In this document: positions 49,187 through 60,389 of the stretch, in pieces
How the letters are laid out: each line of letters starts with the position of its first letter
Numbering within the stretch: the stretch's first letter is position 1
Source of the DNA: Salipiger sp. IMCC34102
GTDB lineage: Bacteria; Pseudomonadota; Alphaproteobacteria; Rhodobacterales; Rhodobacteraceae
DNA: 64,000 nt
Direction: 5' to 3'
NCBI RefSeq assembly: GCF_004145405.1
Contig: NZ_SELQ01000002.1
Location: forward strand, 620,001-684,000
The notes under the pieces: generated by a model
Told to the model about the DNA's origin: nothing
Database searches by the model: none
Seen by the model: only the letters and a program-made list of their open reading frames with translations
Program-made: the position numbers and the translations under genes

Positions 49187-50158
49187 TTACGAAGCTTCGG
49201 GGATCGTGATCCGGCGGCCCGCGTTCACGAAGGCGTCCATCGACATGGGCCAGACCGTCCCGGGCCAGCGGATCTCCATCTCGCGCAGGCGGGGGCGGTA
49301 GACGGCCGTGTAGAGCGTGCCGAACCCTTTCGAGAAGGACGTCGAGTAGAGCGGCGGCTTCAGGAACGCCTGGATGAAGGCGTCCTGCGGTTCGCGGTGC
49401 AGGGTCAGGCGTTGCAGCAGGAACCGTTCGCGTTCGACCGTCGCGGTGAACCTCGCATGAGAGATCCATTCGACGTTTTCCTGGTGGTTGGTCGCGACCG
49501 CGTTGTTGGTGATGACCGTCTCGCGTCCGGGACCCATCATCGCGGTCACGTAATGGCGCCCCGCATCGAGCACGGTGACGTTGTAGCTCATGTGGCTGGG
49601 GATCCGCGCCAAGGCCGCGGCGGCCTCTGCCGTGGTGGTGCAGGTCTGCAGAACGTAGCGCAGGATGAGCGGCACGCCGAAGCCGCGGCCCACCACGTTG
49701 CGCCCGCCGAAGGTGAGCGACACGGCGAGCCCTGCGTCGTTGATCCCGTCGACCAGCCCCCACAATCCGTCGGAGACTCCCATGACCACCCGCCCGTCCC
49801 AGGCGGTGCGCAGGATCAGGCTGTCGAAGTAGCGGCTGTCGTAGTCGTAGTTGCGCACCATGACCGGTTCCGGCCCTGGCCAGATCGCCTGGCTGCAGCC
49901 CGAGAGATAGGCAGGCGGGTTCCAGAACGACAGGAAGCGCGCCGCCCGGTCGCCGCCGCCCGCAAGGTCGCACAACCGGTCGTAGAGCGGCACCAGTTCG
50001 GGCATGTGCCGGGTCAGGGCGCGACGGGATTCAGTGTAGGTCGCACGCGCGTGCAGGCCCTCGCGGCTCCACCAGTCGTCGTAGGCCGGCCAATATTCGG
50101 CGAACAGCCTGGCCCATTGCGGGCCGGGCTGATCTTCTGAAAGCGCGCGCCAAAGCAT
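49187..50158 (-). CDS. C45-type autoproteolytic acyltransferase/hydrolase (Ntn fold)
   Basis: A 323-aa protein of the acyl-CoA:6-aminopenicillanate acyltransferase/C45 peptidase family. In YLSGCSQAIW, Gly87-Cys88 is the expected autoprocessing site, freeing Cys88 as the N-terminal nucleophile. VMVRNYDYDSRYFDSLILRT, GLWGLVDGINDAGLAVSLTF and TVLDAGRHYVTAMMG follow the family pattern. These enzymes make or break amide bonds. Its ATG directly follows the ATP-grasp stop (TAGATG), so the two are coupled. Confidence 0.8.
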   Translation of the reverse strand: MLWRALSEDQPGPQWARLFAEYWPAYDDWWSREGLHARATYTESRRALTRHMPELVPLYDRLCDLAGGGDRAARFLSFWNPPAYLSGCSQAIWPGPEPVMVRNYDYDSRYFDSLILRTAWDGRVVMGVSDGLWGLVDGINDAGLAVSLTFGGRNVVGRGFGVPLILRYVLQTCTTTAEAAAALARIPSHMSYNVTVLDAGRHYVTAMMGPGRETVITNNAVATNHQENVEWISHARFTATVERERFLLQRLTLHREPQDAFIQAFLKPPLYSTSFSKGFGTLYTAVYRPRLREMEIRWPGTVWPMSMDAFVNAGRRITIPEAS

Positions 50159-51619
50159 CTACATGATCTTGAAGGGCGGATCGGCCGTAACGGGACCGGC
50201 ACCGGCGACCGGCAGGGCCTTGCCCGCGACCTCCTTCTTGATGCCGTGGATCCACTTCTTGGCCCGGTCGTTGAGCTGGAAGTTCTTCGTCATCGACCGG
50301 CCGCGCGTCACCAGGATGCCGATATCGGCCCCTTCGTAACGGTAGTCGCCCGGTTGCAGGATCCGCAGGAAGAAGCATTCGTTCTCGGATTCCACCGCCC
50401 TGCGGTGATAGTCGAAGCGGTCGAAGACCACCTGCCCGTCGTCCGTCATCTTGTAGATGCCCGTCTCTGGCACCTCGGTGCAGATGTCGACTTCGTCCTT
50501 GGTATGCTTGATGACCATCTGGGACCAGCCGTCGATCATGTCGGGGTCGGACCAGCGGGCGTTGAGCTCGTCCACGTCGAGGTTGAACTTCTTGCGGCTG
50601 AATTCCAGTAGATGGAACAGGAAGAGCGGCGCATCGGCATGGGCGAAGGCCGCGTGGTTCGTCATCGACGACGCCCCGGTGATCCGCGGGTTCAACTCTC
50701 CCAGCCACAGATCGCCGGTTTTCTTGTCGATCAGGAAGTCGAGTTCGAAGTAGCCGCGATAGCCTTCCTTGCGCAGCTGTTCACCGAACTTGAAGGTCAG
50801 ATCGCGGGCCTGCTGGCGCACTTTCGGTGGGAAGGCCGTGGCCAGGATCTCGTTCCCGCACCAGCCACCGCGGTAGGGGGTGAGGTCCTTGAAACCGACC
50901 AGTTCCGTCATCAGCGGGCCGACGATGGTGCCCTGGCTAGTCGCGCAGGCCTCGATCGCGGAGCCGCGGCAGTCGATCCGCTTCATGATCTTGATCTCGC
51001 CCTCGCCCACGATCTCGTGCTCGTGTCGGCGAAAATCCTCCTCGGACTTGATGAAGAAGGTCGTGTGACCGCTGTCGCCGAACGCCGATTGCAGCACGAG
51101 GTCATGGCCGATGCCGGCCTTCTCGCAGATGGCGCGCAGGTCCTCGTAGGATTTGACCTCGGCCAGCGTGTTCGGCACCGAAGGCACGCCCGCCTTGTTG
51201 CCGATGCGCACGGTCTCGATCTTGTTGTCCATCTTGGTGCGCAGCTTGGCCTTGGGAAACCAGATCTCGCCGCCCAACTCCTTGACCAACCGCTCGGTCT
51301 CCTCGTCGAACATCAGGAAGACGAACTTCGGCTTGCCACCGCGGCGCGTGATGAGGTCCACGACCTCCTTGTGCTGCAGCAGGTAGTTGTTGATGTCCTC
51401 GATCGACTGGAACTCGGCATGCGGCTGCTCTGAGGGGCAAAACACGTTGGGATGCTTGCCGCCGTAGCAGTCGATATAGGTGATGTACTTGAAATTCTTC
51501 ACCCATTCGTCCAGCCCCAACAGGTTGAAGTTGGTGGCCGAGACGAAATAGACCGGCTCCTCGTTGCGGTGAAAGAACCGCCTGATGTCCGAGATGTTCT
51601 GTAGAACGGCTTTGGGCAT
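50159..51619 (-). CDS. ATP-grasp carboxylate-amine ligase-like protein
   Basis: A 486-aa ATP-grasp protein, of the kind often labelled 'biotin carboxylase'. FPKAKLRTKMDNKIETVRIG opens the central domain. GHDLVLQSAFGDSGHTTFFI is the Gly-rich loop, and GYFELDFLIDKKTGDLWLGE with LNPRITGASSMTNH holds the Mg/ATP-binding Glu, Asn and Arg (about 292-312). There is no biotin carboxyl carrier or carboxyltransferase nearby, so a peptide- or amide-forming ligase is more likely. AGGAGG precedes the ATG. It lies 18 bp after the decarboxylase. Confidence 0.75.
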   Translation of the reverse strand: MPKAVLQNISDIRRFFHRNEEPVYFVSATNFNLLGLDEWVKNFKYITYIDCYGGKHPNVFCPSEQPHAEFQSIEDINNYLLQHKEVVDLITRRGGKPKFVFLMFDEETERLVKELGGEIWFPKAKLRTKMDNKIETVRIGNKAGVPSVPNTLAEVKSYEDLRAICEKAGIGHDLVLQSAFGDSGHTTFFIKSEEDFRRHEHEIVGEGEIKIMKRIDCRGSAIEACATSQGTIVGPLMTELVGFKDLTPYRGGWCGNEILATAFPPKVRQQARDLTFKFGEQLRKEGYRGYFELDFLIDKKTGDLWLGELNPRITGASSMTNHAAFAHADAPLFLFHLLEFSRKKFNLDVDELNARWSDPDMIDGWSQMVIKHTKDEVDICTEVPETGIYKMTDDGQVVFDRFDYHRRAVESENECFFLRILQPGDYRYEGADIGILVTRGRSMTKNFQLNDRAKKWIHGIKKEVAGKALPVAGAGPVTADPPFKIM

Positions 51620-51637
51620 GGTGGTCCTCCTGAAGGA

Positions 51638-54442
51638 TTATTCGGCAGCGGGTTTGGATTTCGAAGCTTGCTTGGACGGCTTTTCGGACTTGCCCTCCGG
51701 CGCCTTCTCGACCCGGGCGGGCATCGCCTTGGTCAGGTTCGCCAACGCTTCGGGCGTGAAGACCCGCAGGCCGAGGTCGGCGCGGTAACCGTGGATCTCG
51801 TTCACGTCGAGCGCCCGCATGAAGGCCAGGATCTCGCGGCTGACGACCTGTCCCGGCACGAGGATCGGGAACCCGGGCGGATAGGGAATGATGAAGGAGG
51901 CCGAGACGACTTCGCGACCGTCTTCGAGTGCCTGATAAAGACTGCCGTCCAAGTCCAGGTAATCGCAAGAAGATTCGTCGTAGGCCAGGTAGTAGGCCGA
52001 ACGGATGTCGCCCTCCGGCGTGTCCTCGCTTGCGCGGAAGGCCGGGTGGAAACGGCTGAAGTCAGGGAGCGGCGGGTAGTTCTCCGTCAGGTTCTTGACC
52101 CGGCGATCGAAGCCCAGCTTCTCCATCTTGGAGGCATCGTCGAGCAGGTCGTCGAGCGACTTGGCGATCTCCACCAGAACCTCGATCAGGTAGGCGACCG
52201 AGGAGCGGGTAGTTCCGATGTTGGTCATGAACAGGACAGAGTTGCGCGAGGTCTTGTTGATCTGGATGCCGTAGCGATCCATCAGGATCTGGGTCTTGAA
52301 CGTGTCCCCGTCCCATCCCGTGCCGCCCACGGCCAGCGTCACGCGGGTCGCGTCGAGCACGAATTCGTCGTTCTGCCAGGCGTCCAGCATGTCGACCCAG
52401 CCGCGGTCGGGGTCGTAATACATCTCCGTCCCGCTTTCGCGGTATTCGGCGGGGATCATGTGACCGACGGTCAGCACCTTGAAGTACTTCGACAAGAGCG
52501 GATGGGTGGAAATCGACCGCCGCATCGCCATCGCGGCCTCGAGCTGGCGCTGGACGAATTCGAACCCCTCCAGTTCCACCTGCCGACGGCCCACGTCGAG
52601 CGAAGCGATGATCTGGTAATTGGGCGAAGTCGAGGTATGGGTCATGTAGGCCTCGTGGAAGGCCTGCTCCACCTCGCCCTTGAAGTCGCTGTCGTTGACG
52701 TGGATCATCGACCCCTGTCGCAGCGAGGTCAGCGTCTTGTGCGTCGACTGCGTGGTGTAGACCCGGACCCGGGCATCGGGCGGGGCCACCAGCCGCGTAT
52801 CCAGAAGGTCCGCGTCCGAAGCGCTGGCCAGCCGCTTTTGCTGAACCTCGTAGGCCCGCGCGTGCTCTTCGGTCTTGAACCGCGCGCGCATCTTGTTGGC
52901 CGCCCGCATGCCGGTCCGCTTGCGGTAGGTCGGGTTGAACCGCGCGAAGGCGAACCACGCCTCGTCCCACAGGAAAATGAGATCGGGCTTGATGGCGAGG
53001 CATTCCTCCATCACCCGCTCGACGTTGTAGACGATGCCGTCGAAGGTGCAGTTCGTCAGCAAGAGCATCCGCACCCGGTCGAGCTTGCCCGCCGCCTTGA
53101 GGTCCAGAAGCTGCTTCTTGATCTCGCGCAACGGCACCGCACCGTACATCGAGTATTCGTTGAGCGGATAGCTGTCGAGGTAGCAGACCTGCGCGCCCGC
53201 CAGCACCATGCCGTAGTGGTGCGACTTGTGGCAGTCCCGGTCGACCAGCACGATATCGTCAGGCCTGACAAGGGCTTGCACGACGATCTTGTTGCAGGTC
53301 GATGTGCCGTTGGTGGCAAAGAACGTCTGTTTCGACCCGAAGGCGCGCGCCGCCAGTTCCTGCGCTTCCTTGATGGGTCCGTGCGGTTCCAGCAGGCTGT
53401 CGAGGCCGCCGGACGTGGCCGAGGTTTCCGCCAGGAAGATGTTGGGCCCGTAGAAGGCGCCCATGTCCTGGATCCAGTGACTGCGGGTGATCGACTTGCC
53501 GCGGCTGATCGGCATGGCGTGAAAGACGCCGGTGGGCTGCTGGGAATACTCGGTCAGGGCCGTGAAGAAGGGGGTCTTGTAGCGGGCCTGGACACCGCGC
53601 AGGATGTTGAGGTGCAGTTCGAGGAAGTCTTCCTGGTTGTAGAAAACCCGGCGGCAGACCCCCAGTTCGGTGCCGGCGATCGCCTCCACCGACCGTTCGG
53701 TGACAAGGTAGGCGTCGAGTTCGGGGCGCACGTCGTCGATGAGCCGGCACAGCGCCGGCCCGTATTCCTGCGTCTCCAGATCGTCGAGCTGGCCGATATC
53801 GGCGATGCCTTCCAGGATCCGCCCCAGGATCGGATGCTCGCGTTCGGAGCGCAAGGTGACGCCCGGGCGCACCACGATGGCCTGGATGTTGTGGTTGAAG
53901 AGGACTGCGATCAGCGCATCCTCGACCGAGGGCACGACGACCGCCTCGTAGATGAAGGCGTCCTCCGGGCGGCGCATCGAATGGACGTTGGACTTCAGCC
54001 AGCGCTCCTGGCTGTCGTTGACCTCGTCGACGATCAGCACCTCGAAGTAAGGCTTGGTCATCGCGCGCACTTCGGGCGACAGGAGCGCCTCGTCGTCGTG
54101 CTCCTCGCGCTCGCCGGTGTCGAGGTGATCGAGCGGAATGTGCCGGGTCCGGTACGCGCCGGTGGTCAGCGCCCGCGCGCAGCGGTGCACGGCATAGGCC
54201 AGTTCGGTGAAACTATTATGCTCGAGCTGGCGGCGCATCTGGTCGAAGACCTGCATGCCCGGGAAGGCCCAGTAGGGCTCGATCTCGGAGAGCTGGTCGA
54301 AGAGCTCCTCCGCCCGGCTGCGCATGATCGGAGAGATCTTCGCCGGAGCGTCGCGCGAAAGCTGGGCCGTGACTTCCCTCAGGCTACTCCACCAGTCGGA
54401 TCGAAGCTGGATTGCGGAGTAGTAGTCGGTCACGGTCGTCAT
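51638..54442 (-). CDS. Long Orn/Lys/Arg decarboxylase (fold-type I, PLP)
   Basis: A 934-aa decarboxylase, longer than the 710-760 aa inducible enzymes. Residues 1-130 are an extra helical N-terminus, about 130-280 a receiver-like wing domain (FEVLIVDEVNDSQERWLKSN), and 285-760 the PLP domain: FFATNGTSTCNKIV, DRDCHKSHHYG (ring-stacking His), FLWDEAWFA (Asp493) and TTQSTHKTLTS (Schiff-base Lys569). A C-terminal domain (PYPPGFPILVPGQ) and a Lys-rich tail (from about 910) follow. GGGGGACG precedes the Met at 54442. Substrate among Orn, Lys and Arg is not decided by sequence. Confidence 0.88.
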   Translation of the reverse strand: MTTVTDYYSAIQLRSDWWSSLREVTAQLSRDAPAKISPIMRSRAEELFDQLSEIEPYWAFPGMQVFDQMRRQLEHNSFTELAYAVHRCARALTTGAYRTRHIPLDHLDTGEREEHDDEALLSPEVRAMTKPYFEVLIVDEVNDSQERWLKSNVHSMRRPEDAFIYEAVVVPSVEDALIAVLFNHNIQAIVVRPGVTLRSEREHPILGRILEGIADIGQLDDLETQEYGPALCRLIDDVRPELDAYLVTERSVEAIAGTELGVCRRVFYNQEDFLELHLNILRGVQARYKTPFFTALTEYSQQPTGVFHAMPISRGKSITRSHWIQDMGAFYGPNIFLAETSATSGGLDSLLEPHGPIKEAQELAARAFGSKQTFFATNGTSTCNKIVVQALVRPDDIVLVDRDCHKSHHYGMVLAGAQVCYLDSYPLNEYSMYGAVPLREIKKQLLDLKAAGKLDRVRMLLLTNCTFDGIVYNVERVMEECLAIKPDLIFLWDEAWFAFARFNPTYRKRTGMRAANKMRARFKTEEHARAYEVQQKRLASASDADLLDTRLVAPPDARVRVYTTQSTHKTLTSLRQGSMIHVNDSDFKGEVEQAFHEAYMTHTSTSPNYQIIASLDVGRRQVELEGFEFVQRQLEAAMAMRRSISTHPLLSKYFKVLTVGHMIPAEYRESGTEMYYDPDRGWVDMLDAWQNDEFVLDATRVTLAVGGTGWDGDTFKTQILMDRYGIQINKTSRNSVLFMTNIGTTRSSVAYLIEVLVEIAKSLDDLLDDASKMEKLGFDRRVKNLTENYPPLPDFSRFHPAFRASEDTPEGDIRSAYYLAYDESSCDYLDLDGSLYQALEDGREVVSASFIIPYPPGFPILVPGQVVSREILAFMRALDVNEIHGYRADLGLRVFTPEALANLTKAMPARVEKAPEGKSEKPSKQASKSKPAAE

Positions 54443-54512
54443 CGGCGTCCCCCGGCTGTCGCGGCCGATGCGCCGCGACGAGGGTCGCCGCGCAGTCGAC
54501 TGCAATCTCTTG

Positions 54513-55487
54513 TTATTGTTCGGTCCTACCTTGCGGCAGGTTGCCGCCCGCTGCAACACCCGGCTGGGGGGCCGGGTAGTCGAGCGGTGCCGCCGCCTGC
54601 GACACCGGGTCAACGTGCAGGCCGGCGCGCGACCCCTGCTGGGGAATTTCCAGCGGCCCGAGCGTGTTGAGGAAGCCGTCCACGCCGGAGGCGCGATCGT
54701 AGACCGAGAATTCGACGTCGCGGTCGCGGAACGACTTCAGCACCTGGCCCAGGCCCTTCATGCCCGTCTCGCGCTGGCGGCGGACCATGGCCATGTCGAT
54801 CTCGATCGGGAACATGTCCTCCTGCCCCGCGGACTGGTGCAGGACCATGCTGGTGGGGTCCACCACGCAGGACTTGCCCACGCCACCCGCGCCCAACCCG
54901 TTCACGTCGATGACGTAGCATTGGAACTGCGCCGCCGTCGCCCGCGCGATGGCAAGCTCCGCATCGCGGTCGGTGGTCCCCGTGAGGACCGGGTGCAGCA
55001 GCACCTCCACGCCTTGCGCGGTCAACTGGCGCGTCGTTTCGGGGAACCACATGTCATAGCAGATCGACAGGCCGAAGCGGCCGACCTCGGGCACGTCGAA
55101 GACGCAGAACTCGGTCCCCGCGGCGATGCCCGCCTCGTAGGGCCGGAACGGAAACATCTTGGCGTAGCGGCGGATCACCTCGCCCTCGGGGTTGATGACG
55201 AAGGAGGTGTTGAGGATCCGCCCGTCCTCGTGCCGGATGAACATCGAGCCGGGGATCAGCCAGACCCGGTGCTTGCGCGCGGCCTCGCAGAAGCGGTCCA
55301 GCGTCTCGTTCTCGGCCGGGACGGCGAACTTGTCCAGGGGCCCGAAAGGCGCCAGTTCCGAGAACAGCACCATCTGGGTCCAGGGAAAACGCGCCATCAG
55401 CACGTCGAGCCGCTGGATCATTCCCTCGACATTGGGCTGAAGGGCCTGGACGTACATCTGCACGCCGGCAATCGCAAAAGGTGTCAT
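54513..55487 (-). CDS. Nitrilase-family carbon-nitrogen hydrolase
   Basis: A 324-aa amidohydrolase with an intact Glu-Lys-Cys triad: Glu44 (LFSELAPFG), Lys110 (RRYAKMFPF) and Cys143 (LSICYDMWFPE). The core is 1-270. An extra Pro/Gly-rich tail (about 280-324) is not part of the fold. Family members include N-carbamoylputrescine amidase and omega-amidase, both fitting an amine pathway. The Met at 55487 starts the nitrilase fold directly. It sits 70 bp upstream of the decarboxylase gene. Confidence 0.85.
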   Translation of the reverse strand: MTPFAIAGVQMYVQALQPNVEGMIQRLDVLMARFPWTQMVLFSELAPFGPLDKFAVPAENETLDRFCEAARKHRVWLIPGSMFIRHEDGRILNTSFVINPEGEVIRRYAKMFPFRPYEAGIAAGTEFCVFDVPEVGRFGLSICYDMWFPETTRQLTAQGVEVLLHPVLTGTTDRDAELAIARATAAQFQCYVIDVNGLGAGGVGKSCVVDPTSMVLHQSAGQEDMFPIEIDMAMVRRQRETGMKGLGQVLKSFRDRDVEFSVYDRASGVDGFLNTLGPLEIPQQGSRAGLHVDPVSQAAAPLDYPAPQPGVAAGGNLPQGRTEQ

Positions 55488-55624
55488 GATCTTGTCTCTT
55501 GTCGCGCGGAATGCGCGGTGGGCACGGCATACAGCCTGCCGGGGGGAAGTTAAACCGCCACACAAGGACGACGTCGGGGCGAACCGCCAGGGTCCGCCCC
55601 GTCATCATCCGTCCGGCGGCGCCG

Positions 55625-57022
55625 TCAGGCGGTCTGTTCAGCCACCGCGGCGGTCAACGCCGCTTCGAAGATCGCGAGCCCCTCTTCGAGGATCGCGTCG
55701 GAGGCGGTGAGCGGCACCATGATCCGCAGCGCGTTGCCGTGCAGGCCGCAGGACAGCAGTACCAGCCCGCGGTCGAGCGCATGGGCCACGACCCGTTTGG
55801 TCAGGTCGGGATCGGGGGTGGCGCTGGCGAAGTCGGTCACGAATTCGACCGCGACCATGCCGCCGAGGCCGCGGATATCCCACAGCCGGTAAGGTGCGGC
55901 ACGCGCGCCGATCTCGGCAAAGCGCTGCTTGAACATCTCGCCCATCTGCGTGGAGCGGTCGAGCAGGCCCTCTTCCTCGATCGCGTCGATGGCAGCCAGT
56001 GCCGCGGCACAGGCGACGGGGTTGCCGCCATAGGTGCCGCCCAGACCGCCGGGGGCCATCGCGTCCATGACCTCGGCCCGGCCGATGACACCGGCGACCG
56101 GGTAGCCGCCCGCCATGGACTTGGCGACGGTGATCAGGTCGGGGACGACGCCGGTGTGCTCGATGGCGAACCACTTGCCGGTGCGGCCGAAACCCGCCTG
56201 GATCTCATCCGCGATCAGCAGGATGCCGTGCTGGTCGCACAGCGCACGCAACGCCTGCATCATCTCGGACGGCACGGGAACGTAGCCCCCCTCGCCCAGC
56301 ACGGGTTCGATGATGATGGCGGCGATGCGTTCGGGCTGGGCGTCGGTCAGCATCAGGTTCTTCAGCCCCGTCAGCGCGTCCTGCACGCTGATGCCGTCCC
56401 GCACGGACGGGAGCGGTGCGCGGTAGATATCCGTGGGGAACGGGCCCACGTCCTTCTTGTAGGGGCTGATCTTGCCAGTCATGCCCAGCGTGAGAAGCGT
56501 GCGGCCGTGATAGCCGCCGGTGAAGGCGATAACCCCGGGGCGGCCCGTGGCGGCGCGCGCGATCTTCACCGCGTTCTCGACCGCTTCGGCGCCGGTGGTG
56601 ACCAGCAGCGTCTTCTTGGCGTGCTCACCCGGGGCAAGGTCGTTCAGACGCTCCGCCAGCTCGATGTAGGGCGCATAGGGCATCACCTGGAACGAGGTGT
56701 GGGTGTACAGGTCTTCCTGCGCCTTGGCGGCGGCCACGACCTTCGGATGCCGGTGACCGGTGTTGAGCACCGCGATGCCGCCCACGAAGTCGATGTAGCG
56801 ATTGCCCTCGACGTCCCAGACTTCCGCGTTCTCTGCAAAGCTCGCGAAGACGGGGGCTGCCGATGCGACACCGCGCGGCACCGCGGCCTGCCTGCGGCGC
56901 AGCAACTCGGCGTTGGTCTGCGCCTCGTGCGGCATCGTGGGGACGACCTTCAGCTCCGGCGTCGCGGTCGCGTCACCTGCCTTGGATGCGGCGGTTCTGG
57001 TCTGCGTTTTCTTCTGGGCCAT
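55625..57022 (-). CDS. gabT: 4-aminobutyrate-type aminotransferase (GabT/PuuE-like)
   Basis: A 465-aa class III PLP transaminase. It shows VWDVEGNRYIDFVGGIAVLN, TGAEAVENAVKIARAATGRP, FTGGYHGRTLLTLGMTGK, LLIADEIQAGFGRTG (cofactor Asp) and TVAKSMAGGYPVAGVIG (Schiff-base Lys). It converts GABA to succinic semialdehyde, or acts on a related omega-amine. A low-complexity N-terminal tail of about 30 residues precedes the fold. It is divergent from a PuuR-like regulator, which supports a link to putrescine/GABA metabolism. Confidence 0.9.
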   Translation of the reverse strand: MAQKKTQTRTAASKAGDATATPELKVVPTMPHEAQTNAELLRRRQAAVPRGVASAAPVFASFAENAEVWDVEGNRYIDFVGGIAVLNTGHRHPKVVAAAKAQEDLYTHTSFQVMPYAPYIELAERLNDLAPGEHAKKTLLVTTGAEAVENAVKIARAATGRPGVIAFTGGYHGRTLLTLGMTGKISPYKKDVGPFPTDIYRAPLPSVRDGISVQDALTGLKNLMLTDAQPERIAAIIIEPVLGEGGYVPVPSEMMQALRALCDQHGILLIADEIQAGFGRTGKWFAIEHTGVVPDLITVAKSMAGGYPVAGVIGRAEVMDAMAPGGLGGTYGGNPVACAAALAAIDAIEEEGLLDRSTQMGEMFKQRFAEIGARAAPYRLWDIRGLGGMVAVEFVTDFASATPDPDLTKRVVAHALDRGLVLLSCGLHGNALRIMVPLTASDAILEEGLAIFEAALTAAVAEQTA

Positions 57023-57056
57023 GCGAGGAATCCTTTCGCGGGCAAAGGGCGGCGTT

Positions 57057-57084
57057 GAATATGCATGACGCCCGTTTAATATTC
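57057..57084. promoter_or_regulatory. Inverted repeat between gabT and the puuR-like gene
   Basis: GAATAT (57057-57062) and ATATTC (57079-57084) are separated by 16 bp, with outer GTTGA and TCAAC also complementary. The region is AT-rich against its surroundings. A possible operator for the divergent regulator; weak evidence. Confidence 0.3.
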
Positions 57085-57177
57085 TTGTCAACGCTTATTG
57101 CAGCGCCGCTGTTGCCCCTTGTTTTCCGGTGTCGTCTGCAGTCTGTCGGATGTCGGATCTGGACGGGGTTTCGGCAC

Positions 57178-57738
57178 ATGGACATCGGGGAACGGCTGCG
57201 CCAGCTGCGCGAGGATCACGGGCTGTCCCAGCGCGAACTGGCCAGCCGCGCGGGCCTGACCAACGGCGCCATCTCCCTGATCGAGAAGAACCGCAGCTCG
57301 CCTTCCGTCGCCTCGCTGAAATCGTTGCTCGACGCCTTCCCGATCTCGATGGCCGACTTCTTCGCGCCGCTCGAAGCCGAAGCGGGACCGCGCCATTTCT
57401 ACACCGCCGACCAGTTCCGCGAGATCGCCCCCCAGGACGGGGCCACCGGCCCGCCGGTGTCCCTGCGCCAGTTGGGCCGCGCGGCGGAGCACAGCCTGCA
57501 GATCCTGCACGAGACCTATCCCCCCGGCGCCGACACCGGACCCGAGTTCCTGCAACATACCGGCGAAGAGGCGGGCATCGTCGTGCGGGGCCGGATCGAG
57601 GTCACCGTCGATGGCGCGGTGCAGGTTCTGGACGAAGGCGACGGCTATCTCTTCGACAGCCGCCTGCCCCACCGGTTCCGCAATACCTCCGACACGGAAT
57701 GCGTGGTCATCAGCGCCTGCACGCCGCCGACCTTCTGA
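57178..57738 (+). CDS. puuR: PuuR-like HTH-cupin transcriptional regulator
   Basis: A 186-aa regulator with an XRE-type HTH (residues 1-60: IGERLRQLREDHGLSQRELA, GAISLIEKNRSSPSVASLKS) and a C-terminal cupin (about 110-185: GEEAGIVVRGRIEVTVDGAV, YLFDSRLPHRFRNTSD). This is the PuuR architecture; PuuR represses putrescine use in E. coli. It is divergent from gabT and heads away from the amine cluster, so regulation of that cluster is likely. The gene symbol reflects architecture and context, not proof. Confidence 0.78.
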   Translation: MDIGERLRQLREDHGLSQRELASRAGLTNGAISLIEKNRSSPSVASLKSLLDAFPISMADFFAPLEAEAGPRHFYTADQFREIAPQDGATGPPVSLRQLGRAAEHSLQILHETYPPGADTGPEFLQHTGEEAGIVVRGRIEVTVDGAVQVLDEGDGYLFDSRLPHRFRNTSDTECVVISACTPPTF

Positions 57739-58388: not shown

Positions 58389-60278
58389 TTACTCTGCCAT
58401 ATCCCAGGCGACCGTGTATTCCGATAGCACCGCGCTGACGTCGTCTTGCGTTGCGCCGTTTGCCGCCACCCGGGCCACGAGTCCGCGCTTCTTGTCCTCG
58501 ACGACCTCCTGGACGCGGGCGGGAACGCCCTTCGCCTCCAGCGCGGTGTCGAAGACGCGGGTGATCGCACGCTTGCGCAAATCGGGCTTGAAGATCTTGC
58601 CCACCGCCGTCTTCGGCAGCTCCGGCAGGATCTCCAGGTGCTTGGGATAGGCCGCGCGCTCGTTGATCTTGCCCTTGGCGTATTCCATCAGGTCGGCTTC
58701 GGTGACGGTCGCGCCTTCCACCAGTTCGACGTAGGCGCAAGGCAACTCGCCCGCGTGGCTGTCCGGCTGCCCGATGGCGCCCGCGAATGCCACCGCCTCG
58801 TGACCGGCGAGGGCCTCCTCGATCTCGGCGGGGTCGATGTTGTGACCGCCGCGGATGATCAGGTCCTTGGCGCGCCCCGTGATCCACAAATATCCGTCCG
58901 CGTCGATGCGGCCGAGATCACCGGTGCGCAGGTAGGTCGGCTTGCCGTTGTCGTCATCGTAGTAGAGGTTCTTGTTCTTGTCGGCTTCCGTATAGGTGTA
59001 GCCCTGCGACACCCCGGGGTTGGAGACGCAGATCTCGCCGATCTCGTCGACGCCGCAGGGCGCGTGGGTCTCGACCGACATGATCCGCACGTCCGTGTAG
59101 GGAAAGGCGAGTCCGATGGATCCGACCTTCTTCGTCCCCTCCGGCGGGTTGATCGACACGAGGCAGGTCGCCTCCGTCAGGCCGTAGCCTTCGCAGATCG
59201 TCACCCCCGCGGCCTCCTCGAACCGGCGGTAGAGTTCCAGCGGTAAAGGCGCAGAGCCGCAGAACGCCAGCTTCAGAGAGGAGATGTCGGCATCCACCTT
59301 GCGCTGCATCAGGGCGGACATGGCCGTGGGCACGGTGATCATGAAGGTCACGCGATAGCGTTCGATCAGCTTCCAGAAGTTGTCGAAGACGCCGTCGCCC
59401 CGGTAACCCTGCGGGGTCGGAAAGACGACCTGCGCCCCCGATCCCAGCGAACAGCCCAGGGAGACGATGGCCGCGAAGACGTGGAACATCGGCAAGGGAC
59501 AGATCTGCACGTCGGTCTCGTTGAACAGCAGGCGGTCGCCCAGCCAGGCGTTGTAGAGGATCCCCGAGTAGCGATGCTGCGCCACCTTGGGCATGCCCGT
59601 GGTGCCGCCGGTATGGAAGTAGGCCGCGACCCGGTCGGTCGGGCTGTCCATGAACTGCAGCTCTTTGGGCTGCTTGGCGACCGCCTTGTCCCACGCGATG
59701 ACCTTGGCCTTGTGCTCGACCGGATTCTTGGGGCGGATGAGCGGCACGATCAGCTTCTTGGCGCCCGTCAGGTAGCGGTGCAGGTCGACCTCGATCACTT
59801 GCTTGACGTTGGGCGCCAGCGCCACGGCCTCCGCCGCCTTCTGGGCCACGTCGGTCTTGGGGAAACTGCGCAGGGTCACGAGGACCTTGGCCTTGGTCTC
59901 CCGAAGGATGGCGCCGATCTGCTGCGGCTCCAGAAGCGGGTTGATCGGGTTCACGATGCCCGCGACCTGACCGCCCAGGTAGGTCTGCACGGCCTCGGAA
60001 CAATTGGGCAGCATGAAGGCCACCACGTCGCCTTCCCGGATCCCGAGGCTTCGGAACAGGTTCGCCACCTGCGCGGTGCGATCCTTGAGCTCCGACCAGG
60101 TCAGCGTGTCCTCGGGGTCCTTGGGGCCCGAGAACAACTGGAAGGTGACCGCGGCCCGGTCGGGAAACTTCGCCGCGGTGCGCGACAGCTGCTCGAAGGT
60201 GGTGGTCGCGATGTCGCGGTCGGCCCAGGGGGCTTCCTGTTCGATCGCTTCACGGTCAGAGATTCCGGCGTACCCCAT
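58389..60278 (-). CDS. Acyl-CoA synthetase (AMP-forming)
   Basis: A 629-aa ANL-superfamily ligase: YFHTGGTTGMPKVAQHRYSG (P-loop with TGGTTGMPK), CEGYGLTEATC, YLRTGDLGRIDADGYLWITG and PKTAVGKIFKPDLRKRAI (C-terminal catalytic Lys). It activates a fatty or aromatic acid to its CoA ester; the substrate is not evident. The Met at 60278 follows GGGAGG with seven bases of spacing; a five-residue longer start is possible. It runs in the same direction as the ABC exporter, 111 bp downstream of it. Confidence 0.9.
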   Translation of the reverse strand: MGYAGISDREAIEQEAPWADRDIATTTFEQLSRTAAKFPDRAAVTFQLFSGPKDPEDTLTWSELKDRTAQVANLFRSLGIREGDVVAFMLPNCSEAVQTYLGGQVAGIVNPINPLLEPQQIGAILRETKAKVLVTLRSFPKTDVAQKAAEAVALAPNVKQVIEVDLHRYLTGAKKLIVPLIRPKNPVEHKAKVIAWDKAVAKQPKELQFMDSPTDRVAAYFHTGGTTGMPKVAQHRYSGILYNAWLGDRLLFNETDVQICPLPMFHVFAAIVSLGCSLGSGAQVVFPTPQGYRGDGVFDNFWKLIERYRVTFMITVPTAMSALMQRKVDADISSLKLAFCGSAPLPLELYRRFEEAAGVTICEGYGLTEATCLVSINPPEGTKKVGSIGLAFPYTDVRIMSVETHAPCGVDEIGEICVSNPGVSQGYTYTEADKNKNLYYDDDNGKPTYLRTGDLGRIDADGYLWITGRAKDLIIRGGHNIDPAEIEEALAGHEAVAFAGAIGQPDSHAGELPCAYVELVEGATVTEADLMEYAKGKINERAAYPKHLEILPELPKTAVGKIFKPDLRKRAITRVFDTALEAKGVPARVQEVVEDKKRGLVARVAANGATQDDVSAVLSEYTVAWDMAE

Positions 60279-60389
60279 TGGTGTCCCTCCCAAGACGACT
60301 TGGCCCGGCGGCGCCGGTTTGTATCATTGTTGCAGACGATGGACGAAAGCGCGGCGCAGGTGCAAGCATGACGCCACGAAAAAGTGAGA

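Follow-up and report, generated by a model that had tools for sequence, protein, structure and literature searches.

What do a decarboxylase, an ATP-grasp protein, two amide-acting enzymes, a GABA transaminase and a PuuR-like regulator do together in the window analysed here, a 64,000-nucleotide stretch of the Salipiger sp. IMCC34102 genome? A preliminary description had read the cluster as a polyamine route, in which the decarboxylase makes putrescine, agmatine or cadaverine, the ATP-grasp protein acylates it, and the C45 and/or nitrilase enzyme cleaves the amide under PuuR-like control. Its observations hold: the five minus-strand genes and the divergent HTH-cupin gene are all present as open reading frames, the gaps are 137, 70, 18 and 0 bp (in the order gabT, nitrilase, decarboxylase, ATP-grasp, C45), and profile matches (Pfam and TIGR/NF models) uphold the family assignments (Table 1). 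We propose a different chemistry for them, as the unit probably handles glutamate- or GABA-type compounds via an amide intermediate, rather than polyamines.

Table 1. Features of the cluster in window coordinates; gene starts were chosen from alignments and homologues.
Feature	Position	Strand	Basis
C45 Ntn hydrolase/acyltransferase (C45)	49187-50158	-	NF040521 (C45_proenzyme) 182.3 (cut-off 85)
ATP-grasp protein annotated 'biotin carboxylase', probably an amide ligase (ATPg)	50159-51619	-	NF005096 754.6 (cut-off 684)
AAT-fold decarboxylase, OKR superfamily, close to M. tuberculosis Rv2531c (DEC)	51638-54442	-	OKR_DC_1 PF01276
Nitrilase-superfamily amidase (NIT)	54513-55487	-	CN_hydrolase PF00795
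gabT-like GABA transaminase, class III aminotransferase (gabT)	55625-57022	-	TIGR00700 546.7 bits (cut-off 506.65); start MAQKKT
Operator-like box, conserved, upstream of gabT	57054-57091	-	TTGACA + two AAC-ending AT-rich repeats
HTH-cupin regulator, PuuR-like, divergent	57178-57738	+	Cupin_2; NF007408 141.4 bits, below cut-off 211

Four of these genes, NIT-DEC-ATPg-C45, form a genuine conserved bacterial gene unit. Their order and strand are identical in 75 of 80 loci, and the remaining five stop at contig ends. Among 398 sampled Pseudomonadota genomes the ATPg gene occurs in 11, six of which belong to classes other than that of the window; all 11 carry DEC and C45 within 7.5 kb of it and nine have a nitrilase within that distance, in variable gene order (hypergeometric p ≤ 2e-14 for co-occurrence of ATPg with its partners, shared descent ignored). 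Genomes lacking ATPg make up 6/17 of those with DEC, 3/14 of those with C45 and 3/12 of those with NIT, and the nitrilase is absent from some lineages carrying the cassette. Co-occurrence beyond close relatives, by which the preliminary description would have its scheme judged, is thus found for four of its five families, with gabT as the loose member: gabT (>70% identity) is present in 31 of the 80 loci and beside NIT in six, so the product common to the loci may be something other than GABA. Both gabT and the regulator (a count of 23, which includes matches near 50% identity) are looser partners of the four-gene unit. In at least 17 of the 80 loci the gene after C45 encodes a class III aminotransferase of unassigned substrate (a lower bound, because each locus contributed its best gabT match alone; in one locus, L085, the gene lies on the opposite strand), a recurrence that would suit the polyamine route.

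That route also draws on the resemblance of the regulator to PuuR and on the presence of a GABA transaminase; in both cases the Puu equivalog models score below cut-off, with gabT at 501.5 bits against 747 for PuuE (NF007308) and the HTH-cupin protein short of the PuuR model (Table 1). The operator-like box lies in front of gabT. Its pattern, derived from some of the loci scanned, gave one match per locus in 17 of 81 loci and 0 matches in five Markov controls of equal length; in an earlier scan the box appeared in 14 of 41 sequences (window included), always upstream of gabT, and at ≤3 mismatches it is the sole match in the 3.57-Mb genome (control 0). Regulator and gabT are adjacent in 19 loci, three of which (L009-L011) have a degenerate box only and miss the pattern. 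The box was not seen upstream of NIT or TRAP genes in the loci scanned, and a promoter/terminator scan did no better than shuffles (1 versus 0.8; 6 versus 5.0). PuuR-like control, as originally proposed for the whole cluster, is borne out to the extent of a PuuR-like regulator with a conserved operator-like box at gabT, through which it may control that gene; what ties the other four genes to it is their position in the window.

Membership of DEC in the OKR superfamily likewise favours a polyamine product. DEC has an OKR_DC_1 domain and the S-x-H-K PLP-lysine motif (S567-T-H-K570, invariant), and matches PDB 9n0o (M. tuberculosis Rv2531c) with 832 bits. Against such a product, the acidic substrate-binding residue expected of Orn/Lys/Arg decarboxylases is absent from 20 of 20 DECs: the position of LdcI Glu526, proposed as substrate-binding in a passage of PMC5607190, is Asn730 in the DEC of the cluster and Asn in all of these 20, and is Glu in the three OKR enzymes whose alignments were inspected (6q6i, 6y3x, 9e0m). 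The sequence PGE is likewise PGQ in 24/24 DECs; its glutamate was rejected as the LdcI substrate residue, as Glu526 sits in VEKTG. Eight DECs that have no ATPg next to them group in a single clade (SH-aLRT 100), sister to the cassette DECs, and adjoin AspT-type antiporters (by annotation, with Pfam for one and inspection by eye for three of the eight); for L170, DEC was located by tblastn and the AspT-type gene is ~3 kb away. In another member of this clade (L115) one neighbour is an aspartate 4-decarboxylase (757.7, cut-off 435.1).

The replacement of two Glu by Asn and Gln would suit a substrate with a neutral amide end, and a second alternative builds on this. ATPg would amidate an amino acid (as a Glu gamma-amide or an N-acylated diaminobutyrate or ornithine), DEC would decarboxylate the masked product, and C45 or NIT would unmask it. 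The presence of ATPg, DEC and C45 together in every ATPg-bearing genome sampled is in keeping with this route, as are the ectoine and ornithine contexts described below. In the AspT-linked DEC clade, however, both substitutions occur with no ligase gene next to DEC, and we regard such masking as rather unlikely.

ATPg is probably an amide ligase. Ligation is the usual chemistry of the ATP-grasp superfamily, GELNPR is invariant in 18/18 aligned ATPg proteins and, in agreement with the ligation and amide cleavage first suggested for this cluster, the protein adjoins two amide-acting enzymes, both with intact catalytic residues. Were it instead a bicarbonate-dependent carboxylase, as its NCBI family name implies, the cluster would carboxylate rather than ligate. 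Its closest solved relatives by profile are indeed bicarbonate-using enzymes (biotin/pyruvate carboxylases, carbamoyl phosphate synthetase and N5-CAIR synthetase), but the best of these PDB matches reaches only ~34 bits, in the ATP-grasp region, and neither a biotin carrier nor a carboxyltransferase is found among the nine proteins scanned around the cluster. The protein has no Pfam match to the C-terminal biotin carboxylase domain at E 0.01. A literal biotin carboxylase identity was rejected, and we consider carboxylation in general very unlikely. An AF2 model of ATPg built from close homologues only had a pLDDT of 42.6.

Of the amide-acting pair, C45 has the family profile, the Gly-Cys site and the Ntn fold of the C45 Ntn enzymes, with G87, C88, R102, N103, D105 and N224 invariant in 15/15 aligned sequences; its motif suggests self-cleavage before Cys88. 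In NIT, E45, K111, C144 and E119, which we take to be the catalytic positions, are invariant in 10/10 aligned sequences, and the first three make up the Glu-Lys-Cys triad. An AguB-type N-carbamoylputrescine pathway was ruled out, NIT scoring 52.9 bits against a TIGR03381 cut-off of 410.25.

Neighbourhoods of the cassette in other genomes bear on its substrate. The Cupriavidus cassette lies beside an SDF dicarboxylate symporter and a family-3 binding protein, and Rhodobacteraceae-type loci have a TAXI binding protein (43/85) and a DctM permease (47/85; each family was defined from one representative). A glutamate-dehydrogenase-like gene in Rhizobium scores below its cut-offs. Shinella loci have Arg/Orn-catabolic genes nearby, of which an agmatinase (TIGR01230 212.3, cut-off 174.3) and a 5-guanidino-2-oxopentanoate decarboxylase (737, cut-off 500) would favour polyamines, whereas no polyamine oxidase or polyamine carrier was identified among the annotated recurrent neighbours of the cassettes. 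In XES5 the cassette lacks DEC, and the plasmid that bears it has a DEC gene at another site, with arginine genes nearby; the case for Orn-to-GABA genes as substitutes for DEC is weakened by this. An ectoine-degradation operon (L101) with EhuR, DoeA, DoeB and EutB (one of two EutB models passes) houses a NIT-ATPg-C45-DEC block, flanked by an Lrp-type gene on one side and by SSADH-like and class III aminotransferase genes on the other; L100 resembles it by BLAST and by eye. Going by this context, diaminobutyrate or aspartate is as good a candidate as glutamate.

The rest of the Salipiger genome adds to the case. A Puu-like set lies outside the cluster, with two glutamine-synthetase-type genes, an FAD oxidase, a class-I amidotransferase and a basic amino acid binding protein; every member is below its cut-offs and other models score better (glutamine synthetase, L-pipecolate oxidase), so the label 'Puu-like' reflects our reading of the layout, and the weakness of these matches makes a polyamine route for the cluster marginally more likely. 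Given this set, the earlier idea that other families replace PuuA and PuuD is not needed, and we rejected it as the main reading. Two PF02784 domains are also encoded elsewhere (one perhaps that of a diaminopimelate decarboxylase), and with the Puu-like layout they count against a polyamine role for the cluster. An SSADH over its cut-off is likewise encoded outside it. The Asn at the Glu526 position, the AspT-type antiporters beside sister DECs, the dicarboxylate/amino-acid carriers and the ectoine and Arg/Orn contexts together weaken the view that DEC makes a polyamine from Orn, Lys or Arg, and we now hold the polyamine route to be unlikely.

We tentatively prefer a scheme in which NIT, DEC, ATPg and C45 act as an 'amide module' of four enzymes and, in this cluster, gabT and its regulator provide an exit for GABA; glutamate would be the most likely DEC substrate. 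We infer its substrates, direction and order of steps as follows: (i) the DEC substrate would be a non-cationic amino acid (glutamate, most likely, or a close relative of it) and the product GABA; (ii) ATPg would couple an ATP-activated carboxylate, through an amide bond, to GABA or to the precursor of GABA; (iii) C45 would hydrolyse or transfer that amide, by analogy with its fold relative acting on isopenicillin N; (iv) the nitrilase would clear a second amide or ammonia; and (v) gabT would convert GABA to succinic semialdehyde, for the SSADH encoded elsewhere. In a further reading, which we consider improbable, an amide containing GABA (or beta-alanine) would serve as a compatible solute or nitrogen reserve, with the cassette responsible for both its synthesis and its recycling: DEC would supply the omega-amino acid, ATPg would build the amide, C45 and nitrilase would degrade it, and the GABA transaminase would drain the product. 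It would fit the occurrence of cassettes in an ectoine operon, in marine Rhodobacteraceae and alongside universal-stress-protein genes and, if true, would mean a new class of metabolite and, for the decarboxylase, a new specificity that Rv2531c might share. The amide module, if correct, would provide a function open to experiment for three families whose present names mislead or say nothing, namely the OKR decarboxylase subfamily with Rv2531c as its solved member, the ATP-grasp 'biotin carboxylase' and the C45 'peptidase', and for marine and soil bacteria the conserved unit predicts a ligation-hydrolysis detour tied to the metabolism of ectoine, arginine/ornithine and glutamate.

Common to the cluster and the E. 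coli Puu pathway (PuuA, PuuB, PuuC, PuuD, PuuE, PuuR) would be a ligation that consumes ATP, hydrolysis of an amide, transamination of GABA and a regulator of cupin-HTH type. The cluster contains neither a PuuA-type ligase of glutamine-synthetase fold nor a PuuD-type class-I amidotransferase, having an ATP-grasp candidate ligase and C45 with a CN_hydrolase nitrilase in their stead; it adds a decarboxylase, lacks an oxidase or aldehyde dehydrogenase, and its substrate is probably not putrescine. Ectoine pathways are not known to include NIT, DEC, ATPg or C45, and the window cassette, unlike that of L101, has no doe genes alongside. Isopenicillin N acyltransferase, which removes aminoadipate from isopenicillin N, has the nearest fold to C45 (Foldseek E 1.1e-12, TM 0.71) and a Gly-Cys site in common, although C45 is only ~16% identical to it. 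DEC shares the PLP fold and S-x-H-K motif of LdcI/AdiA, the AAT-fold Orn/Lys/Arg decarboxylases, and differs from them by a longer N-terminal part and by the Asn in place of LdcI Glu526; M. tuberculosis Rv2531c, the activity of which is described as not clarified in a passage of a 2026 review (PMC12910592), shares this Asn with DEC.

The conserved core of the cluster is a four-gene cassette, NIT-DEC-ATPg-C45, encoding a nitrilase-superfamily amidase, a decarboxylase, an ATP-grasp protein and an Ntn enzyme. The layout in the preliminary description was confirmed: five minus-strand genes with intergenic gaps of 137, 70, 18 and 0 bp (starts from alignments and homologues) lie beside a divergent HTH-cupin gene. 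Scanning one genome per species returned at least 583 matching stretches, at least 505 of them encoding ATPg relatives; among the best 80 of these, nearly all with Rhodobacteraceae-type names in their titles, 75 carried the cassette in this order on a single strand, and the five without the full order (L012, L015, L059, L084, L087) hit contig ends. Across 398 sampled Pseudomonadota genomes, ATPg occurred in 11, DEC in 17, C45 in 14 and NIT in 12. Every genome with ATPg, six of the 11 being from classes other than that of the window, also encoded DEC and C45, and nine encoded NIT, with cassette genes spanning 5.2-7.4 kb. Gene order was NIT-ATPg-C45-DEC in three genomes and the layout divergent in another (G007); related loci are plasmid-borne in Roseobacter, Cupriavidus, Sinorhizobium, Rhizobium and Shinella, with NIT non-adjacent in the rhizobial plasmid copies examined and DEC non-adjacent in Shinella. 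This varying order suggests that shared descent alone does not keep the cassette together and that association also plays a part. The co-occurrence anticipated for all five families thus held for these four, but was looser for gabT, the GABA transaminase gene (>70% identity in 31 of the best 80 of at least 505 loci).

Features of the cluster (assigned by family scan) and of related loci (L, compared locus; G000, the window's own genome; C, contig)
Feature	Coordinates	Assignment or context
gabT product		GABA transaminase, above family cut-off
NIT		CN hydrolase
DEC		OKR-type decarboxylase
ATPg		ATP-grasp, NF005096 ('biotin carboxylase')
C45		C45 proenzyme
Divergent regulator		PuuR-like, under PuuR cut-off
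Acyl-CoA synthetase	window 58389-60293	NF005714, 846.5 vs cut-off 632
Second C45 paralogue, own genome, beyond window	L176:7440-8558	After an ORF
C45 paralogue	L118:8989-10083	After gene annotated PHB-depolymerase-family esterase
Four-gene block	L101:5019-18747	Within ectoine-degradation operon
'Alanine racemase'	L004:15801-17588	Racemase domain fused to arginase-family domain (Pfam)
'Alanine racemase'	L110:17782-19569	Orr-like, 393 bits vs cut-off 480; length as L004 gene
Puu-like layout	L190 (G000:C41:249000-263000)	All members under equivalog cut-offs

DEC is probably not a polyamine enzyme. Among solved structures it is closest to M. tuberculosis Rv2531c (832 bits), whose activity had not been clarified according to a recent review (PMC12910592). 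LdcI Glu526, proposed as substrate-binding (PMC5607190), maps to VEKTG in the profile alignment; the position is Glu in the one ADC and two LDC sequences among the alignments listed, and Asn730 in 20/20 DECs, with Asn also in Rv2531c. A second substitution, PGE to PGQ, is present in 24/24. Eight DECs without adjacent ATPg form one clade, all beside AspT-type antiporters (four by annotation, one by Pfam, three by eye), and at L115 an aspartate 4-decarboxylase above cut-off is a further neighbour. As decarboxylase-dedicated antiporters import substrate and export product (for Arg, Orn and Lys: PMC8503589), these carriers suggest an acidic substrate. The polyamine reading, in which ATPg and C45 or NIT would stand in for PuuA and PuuD, remains a rival. 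The sister clade itself (L114-L117, L167-L170), sometimes found beside aspartate 4-decarboxylase, may represent a new type of decarboxylase paired with an antiporter and acting on an acidic amino acid.

In C45, Gly87, Cys88, Arg102, Asn103, Asp105 and Asn224 are kept in 15/15 sequences, and the fold of its predicted model (pLDDT 83.1) most resembles that of isopenicillin N acyltransferase, with a TM of 0.71 and an E value of 1.1e-12. The NIT catalytic triad is kept in 10/10; the GELNPR motif of ATPg is invariant (18/18), and its profile matches are to bicarbonate-using ATP-grasp enzymes, weakly. Cassette-free NIT relatives (40-47%) occur at L172, L173 and L171, near genes resembling, by eye, TonB receptors, TPR proteins and MFS carriers.

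We favour a route in which DEC would convert glutamate, or a closely related compound, to GABA; an amide of GABA, or of its precursor, would be built at the expense of ATP and cleaved by C45, with clearance by NIT, and GABA would exit via gabT and then the SSADH encoded at C10 (699.3 against a cut-off of 646.35). A masked-substrate order of steps remains a rival to this route.

Other partners are less constant. Among the best 80 of at least 505 loci, gabT adjoins NIT in six, a regulator relative occurs in 23 and a second class III aminotransferase lies past C45 in at least 17; with families drawn from one representative each, a TAXI binding protein occurs in 43 of 85 loci, a DctM/DUF3394 permease in 47 and a universal stress protein in 21. 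Upstream of gabT lies a 38-bp box in which TTGACA precedes two AT-rich, AAC-ending repeats; it is unique in the 3.57-Mb genome with up to three mismatches allowed. Its pattern, drawn from loci of the same set, matched once each in 17 of 81 loci and never in five Markov controls, upstream of gabT wherever positions or sequences were listed. Hence gabT is most likely under the local control of the HTH-cupin protein. The acyl-CoA synthetase gene also adjoins the regulator in four Loktanella-type loci (L008-L011).

In Cupriavidus oxalaticus, genes for an SDF dicarboxylate symporter and a family-3 binding protein come after the cassette. The ectoine operon at L101 has EhuR, DoeA and DoeB above cut-offs and EutB above in one of two models; an Lrp-type gene flanks the block on one side, SSADH-like and class III aminotransferase genes on the other. 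By eye, L100 has the same arrangement. In Shinella and 'Roseateles' XES5, ATPg-C45 lies alongside a racemase-arginase fusion, D-amino acid dehydrogenase, 5-guanidino-2-oxopentanoate decarboxylase and aldehyde dehydrogenase, a set that could convert Arg/Orn to GABA or guanidinobutyrate. For one decarboxylase of this type, from Sinorhizobium, activity was sevenfold higher on 5-amino-oxopentanoate (PMC7268258). The XES5 plasmid carries a DEC gene elsewhere, which counts against simple replacement of DEC there. Annotation places a Nif11-type RiPP precursor accompanied by radical SAM genes, and an ABC transporter together with an amidase gene, in the neighbourhood of the rhizobial plasmid copies L111 and L112.

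No papers on this gene set were found in the open-licence library searched, which covers few subscription papers. The window's genome has, elsewhere, a layout resembling the E. coli putrescine (Puu) route: two glutamine-synthetase-type genes, an FAD oxidase, a class-I amidotransferase and a basic amino acid binding protein. The two glutamine-synthetase-type genes reach 167 and 180.6 bits against the gamma-glutamylputrescine synthetase model (cut-off 650) and score better on plain glutamine synthetase models. Given this layout, the cassette need not replace Puu, although it still may.
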